64,000 bases of DNA. Source: Affinundibacterium macrobrachii (GTDB lineage: Bacteria; Pseudomonadota; Gammaproteobacteria; Burkholderiales; Burkholderiaceae_D). The stretch covers positions 372,001 through 436,000 of the forward strand of contig NZ_BMYT01000002.1 of NCBI RefSeq assembly GCF_014652415.1, written 5' to 3'. Position 1 is the stretch's first letter, and every line of letters begins with the position of its first letter. The translations under genes were made by a program, and so were the position numbers. The notes under the pieces were generated by a model. It was not told the origin of the DNA. It was given only the letters and a program-made list of their open reading frames with translations, and made no database searches. Below, piece after piece: positions 10,500 through 17,681 of the stretch.

Positions 10500-12228
10500 C
10501 TGGATTTTTCATAGGATTAGTAAAAATTAATTTCATAAGCGGCAATGTGCCACAAAGCGGCTATCTAAGGCAAGTACGGGGAGGCGACTTGAGCTTTCTT
10601 CTCGACCTCTTTGTTCACATCGCGTATCGATGATGCGCTAATTTTTCGATGTTATGAACCAGGCAGTACAGATGCCATTGCGTATTCACTTTCTTTTGCC
10701 CACGCAGCGTAAAGCGATCGAGCTTTTTGTTATAACGAAGATTGCCAAATACAGGTTCGACGGTTGCGAGTCTTCTACTGTATTGTTTGCGACCTTCGAC
10801 GCTATCGATTCGTTGCTTCATTGCTTCGGTATAGCGCATCGGTGACACTTGATTCTTATGGAAGATCGCTACTTGTCGCACCTGTGTTTTGTCCGGTGTC
10901 CGCAAGCACTGTTGACGAAGTTCACATGGCAGGCAATCGCGTTTTGCACCAGTGAATTTATGGTGCTGCCTCCCATTCACGGTGCAATGACTACCATTGC
11001 TGTAAAGGCGCTTTCCTGCAGGACAAATGGCACAATTCTCTTCAACGAGATGCGTAAAATCGCTTGGCCTAAAAAGGCCTTTTCGTTCTTGGTTGGGATT
11101 CGCTTTATTCCACAATGGGTCGGGCAATTGTTTGTATTTACTTTGTTCTTTAAAACGTTCATCACGTCTGCGCATAAGACCATCGGCAATCAGCGCAGGA
11201 ATACCTTGCTCAAACAATGCTTTCACATTTGCTTCGCTATGGTAGCCTGCGTCAGCGGTAATCACGGTATCGCGTTGTCGAACTTGGGTTGTTTGTTCAA
11301 TCATCGGTAGCAGAATACTTTGCTCACTGCCCGAACTGTGCGCTTGCGCAGCCACGATAATCTGATCTTGACTATCGACCGCTGCAACCGCGGTGTAGCC
11401 TTGAATGACGCCTTTGGAGGTAGCCATCTTGGCGCTTTCATTGTCGGTCACATTACTTTTACGAATGCTGCCTTTTTCGCTTTTACGTTCTGCATTCGTC
11501 GCCAAAAATGTGCGAATGCGTGACGCTTCATGTTGTAGTTTGCGAATCTGTTTTTGCTCCCGTTTGTTGATCTCTGATGACTCTTGATCGTTACCTTGGT
11601 GCGACGCCATGATCCGCTTGATCGCCTTTTCCATGCGGTCTGCCTCATGTGCGAGTTCAGCATGTGTTCCACTGCGCTGTTTGGATGCATTGCTAGGGAG
11701 CTTCACACCATCAATCGCAAACATCTGCCCACCAATCAAACCCTGACGCTGACAAATCATCAGTACTTGGGTGAAGAGCTGCGCAATTTCTTTTTCCAAT
11801 TCGCGAATGAATTTGGCGATCGTCGTGAACTGTGGCGCGCTGTCACCCGAGATCGCCATGAACAGGACATTCTCACGACAAGCACGTTCAATCGCCCGGC
11901 TTGAATTCATCCCTCGACTGTACGCGAGCAGGATGATCTTTAACATCACAGTAGGATCATAAGCAGGTGCGCCTGTTTCATCGTTGCGATAGCGAGCCAC
12001 GATGGCAGCACAATCAATTTCTTGATCGATGAGGTAATCCAAAGCAAACTCAAAACTACCTGGTGTCAACTGCGCCTGTAAATCGATCGGAATAAATCGT
12101 GGTTGTCGATCGATGACTTTGAATCGTGCCATACTCCCTCCTCGTCGGTTGAGGTTTGAACGTATACCTCGTTGAGGTCGTTTACATCGTTTGGGAATTT
12201 TTTTGTGGTTGAAGGACTAAAAATACAG
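10500..12228 (-). mobile_element. IS1182-family insertion sequence (ends approximate)
   Basis: A single-gene insertion sequence. The transposase is full length and uninterrupted, so the copy may be active. The proposed ends come from a partial inverted match: CTGGATTTTT at 10500-10509 and, on the other strand, CTGTATTTTT ending at 12228. A second candidate pair, GCTGTAT at 10455 and at about 12229, cannot be excluded. The total of about 1.7 kb fits the family. I could not find a convincing direct target repeat. A small perfect hairpin (CGGCAG-C-CTGCCG, 12254-12266) lies just outside the right end. Confidence 0.6.
10615..12132 (-). CDS. IS1182 family transposase
   Basis: A DDE transposase of 505 residues. 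The N-terminal half contains the DUF772-type segment with Y-D-P-T-V-M-L-K-I-I-L-L-A-Y-S-R-G, typical of IS1182 and IS5-like enzymes. Catalytic acidic residues are visible in F-A-I-D-G-V-K-L, T-A-D-A-G-Y-H-S and T-V-E-P-V-F-G-N-L-R. The middle has a cysteine cluster (CAICP, CLPCELRQQC) belonging to the DDE_Tnp_1_6 region. The frame is intact from ATG 12132, which follows a GGAGGGAG ribosome-binding site. Many small frames on the opposite strand inside this gene are shadows. Confidence 0.93.
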   Translation of the reverse strand: MARFKVIDRQPRFIPIDLQAQLTPGSFEFALDYLIDQEIDCAAIVARYRNDETGAPAYDPTVMLKIILLAYSRGMNSSRAIERACRENVLFMAISGDSAPQFTTIAKFIRELEKEIAQLFTQVLMICQRQGLIGGQMFAIDGVKLPSNASKQRSGTHAELAHEADRMEKAIKRIMASHQGNDQESSEINKREQKQIRKLQHEASRIRTFLATNAERKSEKGSIRKSNVTDNESAKMATSKGVIQGYTAVAAVDSQDQIIVAAQAHSSGSEQSILLPMIEQTTQVRQRDTVITADAGYHSEANVKALFEQGIPALIADGLMRRRDERFKEQSKYKQLPDPLWNKANPNQERKGLFRPSDFTHLVEENCAICPAGKRLYSNGSHCTVNGRQHHKFTGAKRDCLPCELRQQCLRTPDKTQVRQVAIFHKNQVSPMRYTEAMKQRIDSVEGRKQYSRRLATVEPVFGNLRYNKKLDRFTLRGQKKVNTQWHLYCLVHNIEKLAHHRYAM

Positions 12229-14021: not shown

Positions 14022-15110
14022 ATGTCTAACCAATTTGCTCCGCTTAAAAACGATACCTTTTTACGCGCTTTAATGCGTCAAGAAACCGAGTACACACCCT
14101 TGTGGCTGATGCGTCAGGCGGGGCGTTATTTGCCGGAATATCGTGCTACGCGTAAGGGGGCGGGTTCGTTTATGAGCTTGGCGAAAAATCCTGATTTTGC
14201 GACGGAAGTAACGATCCAACCATTAGATCGCTTCAAGCTCGACGCGGCGATTTTGTTTTCAGATATTTTGACCGTGCCTGATGCGATGGGCTTGGGTTTG
14301 TATTTTGAAGAAGGCGAAGGTCCGAAGTTTGAACGTCCTTTGAAGGATGAAAAATCTATTTTGGATTTGAAAGTGCCAGAAGAGGGCAGCTTGCAATATG
14401 TGTTTGATGCCGTGACGCAGATCCGTCGTACTTTGGATGGACGTGTTCCTTTGATCGGTTTTTCTGGCAGCCCATGGACTTTGGCTTGTTATATGGTGGA
14501 AGGGCAGGGTTCGCGCGAGTTTCATGGTGTGAAGACTTTGATGTACAAGCGTCCTGATTTGATGGATCGCATTTTGACTTTAAATGCGGAAGCGGTGGCG
14601 ACCTATTTGAATGCACAGATCGATGCAGGTGCGCAGGCGGTGATGATTTTTGATAGCTGGGGCGGTGCTTTGGCAGACGGGGCATATCAACGTTTTTCAT
14701 TGAAGTACATGCAAGATGTGGTCAGCAAATTGCAAAAAGAAAAAGATGGCAAGCGCATTCCTTGTATCGTGTTCACCAAAGGCGGTGGTCTGTGGTTAGA
14801 AGATATCGCGAATATTGGCGCTGATGCCTTGGGCTTGGATTGGACTGTGAATCTTGGTCAGGCACGTGCGCGTGTCGGTGACAAAGTAGCATTGCAAGGC
14901 AATCTCGACCCAGCCGTCTTATTCGCTGAGCCTGATCAAATTCGTAAAGAGGTCACAGCAGCTTTGCATTCTTATGGCAAACCTAGTGCGGGTCATGGAC
15001 ATGTTTTCAATTTGGGACATGGTATCTCGCAATTTACTTCACCGGATGCGGTCAGTGTCTTGGTTGAAACTGTGCATGAAGTGAGTCGTCAACAACGACA
15101 AGCCTCCTGA
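14022..15110 (+). CDS. hemE: uroporphyrinogen decarboxylase
   Basis: HemE removes four acetate carboxyl groups from uroporphyrinogen III to give coproporphyrinogen III in haem synthesis, in the cytoplasm. The 362-residue length matches the family. Signature 1 ([16 protein letters not shown]) is at 27-42, and the second signature, [13 protein letters not shown], is near 147. Conserved D-S-W-G-G and G-N-L-D-P-A blocks follow. The C-terminal [12 protein letters not shown] is canonical. ATG 14022 gives the usual N-terminus. It is followed by priA after a 546-base gap containing many DnaA-box-like sites. Confidence 0.98.
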
Positions 15111-15289: not shown

Positions 15290-15600
15290 TGTTGCTGTGC
15301 AAAACATAATACTCATGCGGCTTCGCGAACATAATCGTGGATAGAACAAGTAATTTCGCGGTGGATAAGTCTGGTTTAGGACTAGATTTTTTAGTAGTTA
15401 TTCACAAAAAAGACACACGAAAAAATAATATGAAAATTTGTTTTTTGCTTCAAACTGTTTTTTCTAAGTCGTTGTTTATAAACAGATTTTTTTGTGCATC
15501 GCAATTGTGCATTCTGTTGAAACCCGCATAGAGACTAGGTTGGCGGCTTGTCAAGATACCTTTGTCCACAAAGTTATCCACAGTTTGTGTGGATAGAGTA
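15290..15600. other. DnaA-box cluster with AT-rich tract, candidate replication-origin-like region
   Basis: Between hemE and priA I find three exact matches to TTWTNCACA: 15296-15304 (minus), 15398-15406 (plus, TTATTCACA) and 15574-15582 (plus, TTATCCACA). Three one-mismatch sites lie at 15360-15368 (minus), 15562-15570 (plus) and 15588-15596 (minus). An AT-rich stretch (about 15418-15492) lies among them. No convincing gene occupies the region. The frame at 15337-15531 has neither ribosome-binding site nor protein-like composition. A hairpin with arms 15131-15138 and 15156-15163 follows hemE. The region could be oriC, a DnaA-titrating site, or DnaA control of priA. Confidence 0.45.
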
Positions 15601-15656: not shown

Positions 15657-17681
15657 GTGGAACCTATTTACCTCACTATTGCTTTAGATACCCCTCTTGA
15701 CAGGTTATTTGATTACCGTTGGGAGCCGGTTGCGGATGCTCCTTTGCCACAAGTTGGGCAAATCGCCTTGGTGCCGTTTGGACGGCAAGAAATCGCTGGT
15801 CTAATTTTGGCAGTAACAACGCAGACTGACGTTCCTGCCGACAAAATCAAGTCGGTACTGGCAGTGCGCCATCAATGTCCCGCATTGGATAGCCGATGGA
15901 TAGATTTATGTCGATTCGCCGCCGATTACTATCAACGGCCTTTAGGTGAGGTCGCGATTCCGGCATTGCCCAAAAACTTGCGTGTGCCGAAAGCAACTTC
16001 ACTGGAACGCAATTTAAAAAAGTTAGCAAAGCTGACTGCAGCGCAGGATGCACGCGCGGTTCAAGAGCCTGCCTTAAATGTACAGCAGCAGAATGCGGTG
16101 GATACTATTTCTGCCAAAACCGCATTTGCAGCATATTTGTTACATGGCGTGACTGGCAGTGGTAAAACCGAAGTTTATTTGCAAACAGCAGCACGGGTGT
16201 TGGCGCAGAATCAACAAGCACAAGTCTTGATTTTGGTTCCCGAGATTAATTTGACACCGCAATTAGAAAGCAATATTCGTGGTCGGTTTCCGGGTTTGCA
16301 GATCGCAACTTTACACAGCGGTATGGCAGAAGGTGAGCGCCTACTCCATTGGTTGGCCGCGCACACTGGTCAGGCGAGAATTATTCTCGGCACCCGATTG
16401 GCCATTTTGTCGTCTTTGCCACATCTTAGATTGATCGTGATCGACGAGGAACATGATCCTTCTTATAAACAACAAGAAGGTCTGCGCTATTCTGCCCGCG
16501 ATTTGGCTGTGTGGCGGGCACACCAACTAGGCATTCCGGTGGTGTTGGGTTCCGCTACACCATCCTTGGAAACCTGGCAGCACGCCAAAGCTGGGCGTTA
16601 TCAAAAACTAGAGCTAACTGAGCGCGCTGTGCAGTCCGCTGTTTTGCCGGTCGTTAAGATTATTAATACGGAAAGAGAAAAGCCTTCCGAGGGTTTAACG
16701 CAGAGATTAGTGTCAGCGATTCGACAGCGTTTAGAGAAAGGTGAGCAATCACTACTGTTTTTGAATCGTCGTGGTTATGCGCCCGTGATTCATTGCGATG
16801 CCTGTGGTTGGATTAGCAATTGCACGCGTTGTACCGCGCATTTGGTCATGCATAAGTTGGACAAGAAATTGCGCTGCCATCATTGTGGTCTGGAGCAAAG
16901 AATTCCGCGCGCTTGCCCAACTTGTGGCAATGTCGATTTGCAACCACTGGGGCGTGGCACGCAAAGATTAGAAGAAGGCTTACAAGCGATTTTCCCGGAA
17001 GCCCGAGTTTTTCGGATTGATGCTGATTCAACCCGACTCAAAGGCAGCGCCGAAGCTGCGTTTGATACCGTGCATCGCGGTGAAGTGGATATTTTGATTG
17101 GTACTCAAATGGTGGCAAAAGGGCATGACTTTAAAAATCTTACCCTAGTGGCGGCACTGAATCCCGATAGTGCGTTGTTTTCTCAAGATTTTCGTGCCAG
17201 TGAACGCTTGTTTGCGCAATTGATGCAGGTGGCTGGGCGTGCTGGACGTGCTGCGCAAAAAGAGGGGGGCAATGCAAGCGAGGTGCTGATACAGACGCGT
17301 TATCCAGATCATCCTTTGTATCACGCTTTGATGGCGCATAATTATCAGGGGTTTGCGGATGATCTTTTAGAAGAACGTCAACAAGCAGCGATGCCGCCAT
17401 TTATTTATCAAGCTTTATTTCGTGCCGAAGCGAAAGAATTGGAAACGGCAATTTTGTTTTTGAAAGAGGCGGCAAATTGCACACCGCATGCGGGAATCAC
17501 GATCAATGATCCAATTCCGATGACGATGACAAGGGTACATAATGTTGATCGCGCCCAGTTATTGATCGAATCAAGCTCACGTCCGGCCTTGCAGGCTTTT
17601 CTCAAAGTATGGATTGCTGATTTGCGCGCACTGAAGACGCGTGTGAAGTGGGGGGTGGAAATTGATCCGGTGGATATTTAG
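15657..17681 (+). CDS. priA: primosomal replication restart helicase PriA
   Basis: PriA recognises stalled forks and reloads the replisome, acting as a 3'-5' superfamily-2 helicase. The 674-residue protein has the N-terminal DNA-binding part (1-100), Walker A G-V-T-G-S-G-K-T (164-171), the D-E-E-H box (264-267) and a GSATPSLE motif. It also has the two zinc-binding cysteine clusters (CDACGWISNCTRC, then CHHCG and CPTCG) characteristic of PriA. The GTG at 15657 is used because the family N-terminus begins directly there. It is a little shorter than the E. coli enzyme. A strong DnaA-box pair lies 60-85 bases before the start. Confidence 0.97.
   Translation: MEPIYLTIALDTPLDRLFDYRWEPVADAPLPQVGQIALVPFGRQEIAGLILAVTTQTDVPADKIKSVLAVRHQCPALDSRWIDLCRFAADYYQRPLGEVAIPALPKNLRVPKATSLERNLKKLAKLTAAQDARAVQEPALNVQQQNAVDTISAKTAFAAYLLHGVTGSGKTEVYLQTAARVLAQNQQAQVLILVPEINLTPQLESNIRGRFPGLQIATLHSGMAEGERLLHWLAAHTGQARIILGTRLAILSSLPHLRLIVIDEEHDPSYKQQEGLRYSARDLAVWRAHQLGIPVVLGSATPSLETWQHAKAGRYQKLELTERAVQSAVLPVVKIINTEREKPSEGLTQRLVSAIRQRLEKGEQSLLFLNRRGYAPVIHCDACGWISNCTRCTAHLVMHKLDKKLRCHHCGLEQRIPRACPTCGNVDLQPLGRGTQRLEEGLQAIFPEARVFRIDADSTRLKGSAEAAFDTVHRGEVDILIGTQMVAKGHDFKNLTLVAALNPDSALFSQDFRASERLFAQLMQVAGRAGRAAQKEGGNASEVLIQTRYPDHPLYHALMAHNYQGFADDLLEERQQAAMPPFIYQALFRAEAKELETAILFLKEAANCTPHAGITINDPIPMTMTRVHNVDRAQLLIESSSRPALQAFLKVWIADLRALKTRVKWGVEIDPVDI

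Follow-up and report, generated by a model that had tools for sequence, protein, structure and literature searches.

An initial annotation of this DNA, made from the letters alone, drew attention to a cluster of DnaA boxes in the gap between hemE and priA, raising the question of whether the gap is a replication origin or a second DnaA-binding region, either a titration site or a DnaA switch on priA. The window analysed here is a stretch of 64,000 nucleotides from Affinundibacterium macrobrachii, C2:372001-436000 of a draft genome of 4.27 Mb in 20 contigs, and 456 kb of contig C2 (C2:200,001-656,000) were read in all. Positions without a contig prefix are those of the window.

DnaA boxes in the hemE-priA gap

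The gap lies between hemE (uroporphyrinogen decarboxylase, 14022..15110, + strand; NCBIfam TIGR01464, 415.6 bits, above cut-off), whose closest named relatives are from Undibacterium at 97% identity, and priA (replication restart helicase, 15657..17681, +; NCBIfam NF004067 and TIGR00595, above cut-offs). Three exact TTWTNCACA sites had been claimed for it and are present, as TTTTGCACA at 15296..15304 (-), TTATTCACA at 15398..15406 (+) and TTATCCACA at 15574..15582 (+). The three one-mismatch sites claimed alongside them are all there as well, but their true number is five: TTATCCACC at 15360..15368 (-), an overlapping pair TTATAAACA at 15473 (-) and 15476 (+), TTGTCCACA at 15562..15570 (+) and CTATCCACA at 15588..15596 (-). 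The group of one perfect box with two near sites within 35 bases, also pointed out at the start, is found at 15562-15596, and the reported AT-rich stretch corresponds to 15407-15464, with 78% AT compared with 62% across the whole gap.

With 2 points for each exact site and 1 for each one-mismatch site, 15290-15600 has a score of 11; dinucleotide shuffles average 1.59 +/- 1.31, and none of 2000 reaches 11. This bears out the earlier estimate that so many boxes would rarely arise by chance, and confirms that the cluster is real. Searching for TTATCCACA with up to one mismatch, 15290-15600 ranks first among 300-bp clusters across the 456 kb of C2; with exact TTWTNCACA only, its 3 sites tie with clusters at 335.7 and 336.8 kb. 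Over its full length the window shows no enrichment of boxes (10 exact sites, 8.5 expected). Neither a hemE terminator nor a clear priA promoter stands above chance in the gap, RNA folding of the hemE tail gives z = -1.82, and no conserved RNA was detected in the window at gathering scores. A few kb before hemE, a 505-aa open reading frame (10615-12132, -) is transposase-like by reading, with a local dip in GC skew.

A conserved frame of boxes around an IHF-type site

The hemE-priA gap could be cut from 108 of 110 loci, and these gaps share a frame of four boxes: alpha (+), beta (+), gamma (+) 12 bp after beta, and delta (-) 14 bp after gamma. In the window alpha is TTATTCACA (TTATGCACA in many relatives), beta TTGTCCACA, gamma TTATCCACA and delta CTATCCACA, with alpha and beta each one mismatch from TTATCCACA. 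Alpha, beta and gamma occur in 101 of the 108 gaps and, by the same rule, are missing from 7, so the boxes are kept in orthologous gaps, a check that the initial annotation had proposed. The boxes at 15296 and 15360 fall outside this module; each has a counterpart in place in 6 of the 108 gaps, the window's own counted. The beta-gamma-delta part is doubled in 19 of the 108, among them gaps of Duganella, Rugamonas, Pseudoduganella, Collimonas and other Oxalobacteraceae. Tandem modules were seen at loci L047, L053, L058 and others of the Oxalobacteraceae, the copy near priA having an alpha-IHF distance one helical turn shorter in L047 and L066. At 15519-15529, 33 bp before beta, the window also carries GAAACCCGCAT, which most Undibacterium rows retain in full or nearly so and the other aligned rows do not.

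A further 23 loci were taken from separate families of the order. There hemE and priA are adjacent in 18, of which 13 carry frame boxes (one of them gamma and delta only) and the other 5 are gaps of at most 138 bp. Combined, 114 of 126 gaps carry 154 modules and 12 carry none, five of these 12 being no longer than 138 bp; the 126 include near-duplicates (L103 is the window, and L104-L132 overlap L023-L035 in species), so the counts are not independent. Delta is absent (at least 5 mismatches) in 41 of the 154 modules, which implies that in several families the DARS core discussed below is incomplete while alpha, the IHF site and gamma are kept.

Between alpha and beta lies a feature that the initial annotation had missed together with the fixed spacing, namely an IHF-type site, AAACAACGACTTA at 15465..15477 (-), which is one mismatch from WATCAANNNNTTR and has exact equivalents in many relatives. 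It starts 67 bp after the start of alpha and 109 bp before that of gamma. Across the 154 modules, WATCAANNNNTTR occurs exactly between alpha and beta in 92 (1.9 in shuffles) and with up to one mismatch in 151 (37.2 in shuffles); at the fixed place itself, 92 modules match the consensus exactly, 53 with one mismatch and 9 with two. In the 145 modules with at most one mismatch there, the site starts 107-110 bp before gamma.

The distance on the other side of the IHF site varies in a restricted way. From lineage to lineage, the AT-rich spacer separating alpha from the IHF site (15407..15464 in the window) changes length by increments of about 10.5 bp, the alpha-to-IHF distances of the 145 modules, many of them from close relatives, being 55-58 bp (38 modules), 66-69 (88) or 75-78 (19) and nowhere else. 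Their vector length is R = 0.907 at 10.5 bp, the best of seven periods tried; for alpha-to-gamma distances the best period is 11 bp (0.845), with 0.817 at 10.5 bp. Classes of 57, 65-69 and 76-79 recur across separate families. Because the alpha-IHF classes are phased at 10.5 bp, it looks as though the number of helical turns varies between lineages and the face of the helix is kept, with alpha in a fixed phase to the IHF site. The genome itself encodes IHF-alpha, IHF-beta and Hda, all three of which pass the cut-off of one or more NCBIfam models; an HU-like protein is also encoded but scores below the NCBIfam cut-offs.

Predicted role in DnaA control

Scanning E. coli K-12 at datA, DARS1, DARS2 and oriC, we found that DARS1 (bioD-uvrB gap, NC_000913 813,107-813,141) and DARS2 (rppH-mutH gap, NC_000913 ~2,969,135-2,969,256) each hold a triple of boxes spaced by 12 and 14 bp with one box opposite, the DARS2 core having been picked by this spacing from a gap in which a weaker 10/14 triple is also present. 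The same triple is formed in the window by beta, gamma and delta at 15562(+), 15574(+) and 15588(-), in the positions of DARS boxes III, II and I, and no other DARS-like triple occurs in the 456 kb of C2. A spacing common to both DARS cores, with box I opposite, is also described in the portion of the literature available to us (PMC5742627). As in DARS2, an IHF consensus precedes the core; of the several IHF-like matches in DARS2, one with a single mismatch starts 99 bp ahead of box II, roughly a turn closer than the 107-110 bp of the module. A pure datA analogue had been our first reading, which was revised once the DARS core was compared.

Taken together, we think it probable that the gap has some DnaA-IHF control role of the DARS/datA class. 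Its best explanation, on which our confidence is evenly balanced, is a chromosomal DARS-type DnaA control site extended by an IHF site and an additional DnaA box. Bending of the spacer by IHF would close a loop of set helical phase, bringing DnaA on alpha into contact with DnaA on beta-gamma-delta, and the resulting complex may alter the nucleotide state of DnaA. Within the loop, the head-to-head gamma-delta pair would assemble ADP-DnaA and aid the release of ADP, regenerating initiation-competent ATP-DnaA. Since the site would be copied soon after oriC fires, its dosage could be expected to track initiation closely.

The direction of action is the least certain step, and we favour reactivation over ATP hydrolysis only tentatively. 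The exact DARS core argues for reactivation of ADP-DnaA. Inactivation or a mixed role is suggested by the resemblance of the left half to datA, by the proximity to oriC and by the 41 of 154 modules that have lost delta. Several observations count against the DARS reading: besides the absence of delta and the near-oriC place, 12 of the 126 gaps have no module, the window's own IHF match has one mismatch, E. coli DARS2 shows no same-orientation counterpart of alpha, the best alpha-to-gamma period is 11 bp rather than 10.5, and the DARS2 gap also holds the weaker 10/14 triple.

The main alternative is a datA-type site, at which IHF would join DnaA on alpha to DnaA on beta so that DnaA-ATP is hydrolysed and initiation is shut down after firing; we judge this unlikely, if still a serious contender. 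In datA (NC_000913 ~4,392,744-4,392,926), box 2, the IHF motif and box 3 are separated by 65 and 97 bp, and in the window alpha, the IHF site and beta by 67 and 97 bp, with the same orientations throughout, so that two same-direction boxes of high-affinity type appear to flank a putative IHF site at set distances and beta takes the position of datA box 3. The excerpted text of one datA study states that the spacings from box 2 to the IBS and from the IBS to box 3 matter, and that datA lies on the origin side of the chromosome (PMC4585315), as the module does. The preservation of alpha, the IHF site and gamma where delta has been lost would also fit. However, beta is often the weaker box, with 2 mismatches in 30 and 3 mismatches in 4 of the 154 modules, and we identified no equivalent of datA box 7. 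At the place of gamma, datA has an opposite box and no same-direction one, whereas the module has the DARS-like triple, which is the more specific match in the window.

A combined history, in which the module is the ancestral form and E. coli datA (alpha-IHF-beta) and DARS2 (IHF-beta-gamma-delta) are its two halves, appears improbable. One oriC-side locus could then both inactivate and reactivate DnaA, with either IHF or the occupancy of delta deciding the direction.

The occurrence of the module elsewhere bears on the proposed link to priA. An alpha-IHF-gamma pattern, built from the order's modules with the IHF part relaxed, is present in 209 of 399 genomes of the order (99 of 158 genera) and in 157 of 369 genomes of the class, and in a phylum sample it was found in 14 of 150 rows, 13 of them among the 37 rows that belong to the class and 1 among the remaining 113. 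A reversed control pattern gave 0 among the matches listed for the 399 genomes of the order and 0 in the 369 of the class. These counts are lower bounds because only exact matches are scored; G033 and G029, of the same genus, give none. Outside the order there are 154 matching genomes (the 157 less 3 that belong to it); 32 loci were drawn from them, 20 hand-picked across families among the matches listed. They were chosen solely by alpha-IHF-gamma, leaving beta and delta as the parts independent of selection. Delta (at most one mismatch) sits at +14 in 23 of the 32, and no other offset between 9 and 39 has a match; beta, allowing up to two mismatches, is found at -12 in 30, and a single match lies at a different offset. 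The alpha-IHF distances outside the order are mostly 78-81, with a few of 68 and with 83 and 85 in two loci, a wider spread than within it.

If the module were a DnaA switch for priA, DnaA and IHF bound ahead of the gene would tie priA expression to the cell cycle. The beta-gamma-delta boxes end close to the gene, 61-95 bp before the priA start codon, and within the order priA follows in 30 of 30 loci examined and hemE is found at 29, these loci representing few families. Outside the order, a priA match accompanies 15 of the 32 loci and is absent from the other 17 (about 1.5 kb searched on either side; L355 and L370 end at a contig end), which by reading adjoin, for example, a hemW-like gene, aroE or xerC. 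The same internal spacing with and without priA nearby implies that the geometry is kept across different gene neighbourhoods, and the loci without priA argue against a site regulating only priA. Also speaking against it, the distance to priA varies widely (the nearest core lies roughly 18 to 290 bp before the gene) while the internal spacing is constant, and some genomes of the order (G358, G240, G270 and G059) carry two or three pattern matches at distant places. Moreover, E. coli has no priA-rpmE box at up to one mismatch, and promoter-like matches in the gap do not rise above chance (2, with 1.5 expected). We therefore regard the priA switch as quite improbable. Of the initial annotation's proposal, the second DnaA-binding region stands, and the switch on priA is disfavoured.

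Passive titration of DnaA near oriC, the other role then suggested, is in our view very unlikely. Dense boxes near the origin would serve it, and titration by the E. coli chromosome, with boxes accumulating towards the origin, is described in the available part of one study (PMC12371093). For titration, however, box number and affinity suffice, and an IHF site, helical phasing and an exact 12/14 triple are not needed.

Other groups of boxes came to light in the same searches. Some 21 kb upstream of the gap, C2:366,220-366,388 (L011 6220-6388) carries TTATCCACA, then TTGCCCACA 148 bp on and TTATCCACA a further 12 bp on, all in one direction, with IHF-like matches between them and no delta. Boxes 149-160 bp apart are found in Janthinobacterium sp. 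344 (G064:C20:276,042-276,517). Rugamonas aquatica has five copies of TTATCCACA in one direction within 700 bp (G062:C22:703,052-703,752), on a different contig from hemE-priA. Three genomes of 6.0 to 6.7 Mb from one family of the class (G857, G861 and G939; f210) have two distant pattern matches each.

Position relative to the replication origin

Within C2:200,001-656,000, the cumulative GC skew is lowest at C2:333,597 and the keto skew is lowest at 332,165, which places both minima about 54-55 kb upstream of the gap. Close to this minimum, outside the window and not adjoining dnaA, we find a candidate oriC at C2:335,660-336,950. It contains two modules in which TTATCCACA is followed by a spacer bearing GTTAAC and then by CTACTAC, at C2:335,660-335,695 and 336,751-336,786; they lie about 1.09 kb apart, flank a nucleosidase-like gene and are followed by AT-rich DNA. 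The outer boxes are 158 bp apart in each copy, and an IHF consensus, with a mismatch in one copy, is located 27 bp from the leftmost box. We take the arrangement at C2:335,660-336,786 to be that of a bacterial origin with a DnaA-trio. In its own genome, TTATCCACA-N(8-28)-CTACTAC occurs only at these two places (C2:335.7 and 336.8 kb); among 60 genomes, its own counted, the pattern is present in 19, and the reversed control matches 7 of 60 rows. Two parS-like sites, both perfect matches to the consensus, are found at C2:352,069 and 352,754. An origin beside dnaA was considered and rejected, since dnaA (C2:570,708-571,181) is 183 kb from the gap and the local skew dip there is only small.

Three relatives agree with this layout. 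In a one-contig relative (G013), the skew minimum (2,688,636) and three box-trio modules (2,686,621-2,688,226) occur together, 34-36 kb from the hemE-priA cluster. In Limnobacter the skew minimum is at 876,797, a box cluster at 873,497 and hemE-priA at 907,709. A Gallionellaceae genome has its minimum at 67,233, 7 kb from the edge of the stretch, with a box cluster at 67,431 and hemE-priA at 115,667. Support for the layout is drawn from these three only. Of the others, Massilia 9I has a noisy skew curve (minimum 3,624,210, 48 kb from the cluster), Denitromonas two dips of which the lower is 110 kb away, AB_14 a minimum near the edge of its stretch, G039 and G049 minima outside theirs, and G056 one 23 kb away.

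The candidate oriC and the hemE-priA module have DnaA boxes and an IHF consensus in common, and two boxes are 12 bp apart in one oriC copy. Unlike the module, the candidate oriC runs outward from its leftmost box to the CTACTAC trio and AT-rich DNA, with IHF 27 bp away. A box facing a DnaA-trio beside an AT-rich unwinding element is a mark of oriC, as is a place at the skew minimum. The gap, at 54 kb from the minimum, shows neither, with no CTACTAC trio, the only type scored, seen in it. An origin lies beside hemE in alphaproteobacteria, and the gap shares that neighbour along with dense boxes, an AT-rich stretch and a place in the origin region of the chromosome; still, with the skew minimum elsewhere, beside box-trio modules here and in G013 and near a box cluster in the other two relatives, a present or former chromosomal origin in the gap is exceedingly unlikely. 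The initial suspicion that the gap is a second DnaA-binding region and not oriC, for which cumulative GC skew had been named as a check, is upheld by the distant minimum and the conserved boxes. Of the outcomes it had named as refuting, a far-off skew minimum was indeed observed, which counts against oriC, while a lack of conservation of the boxes was contradicted.

Relation to known DnaA control sites

By setting the ATP state of DnaA, the non-coding switches datA and DARS control when replication takes place. In the parts of the literature available to us, they are treated in E. coli and its relatives (PMC4585315, PMC10950094, PMC5742627, PMC10380432, PMC8682772, PMC4245941), datA-like clusters are named in Bacillus subtilis and Streptomyces (PMC10950094), and the density of DnaA boxes near oriC is analysed in E. 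coli and Salmonella (PMC12371093). Like the kind of site proposed here, the boxes in these systems can repress or buffer initiation; unlike it, no IHF-phased unit is described in the available portions of the two reports (PMC10950094, PMC12371093), and the portion of PMC12371093 has 0 occurrences of hemE, priA, betaproteobacteria or Burkholder. Among the matches listed in a search of titles and abstract beginnings, in which 'datA' and 'data', and 'hemE' and 'heme', are indistinguishable, no publication describes a DnaA-IHF site between hemE and priA.

How far DARS itself extends is stated differently in different sources. Passages from two reviews have DARS-like sequences or the DARS2 spacing conserved in many proteobacteria, or in beta- or gammaproteobacteria near E. 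coli, while the available text of PMC4245941 itself is narrower, limiting both Fis and the DARS2 core to E. coli-related gammaproteobacteria. If our interpretation is true, DnaA-IHF control would extend to about half of the sampled genomes of the order (209/399) and to many members of the class, and natural variants of the module, whether doubled, delta-less or displaced by one helical turn, offer a way to assign functions to its parts, at the exact coordinates given here. The DARS sites of E. coli lie mid-arm, according to the excerpted text of PMC5742627, whereas the hemE-priA module is near oriC. Thus, a DnaA control site of this kind is known, and what would be new is the helically phased alpha box, the place near the origin, the tandem copies and the geometries of datA and DARS brought together in one unit.
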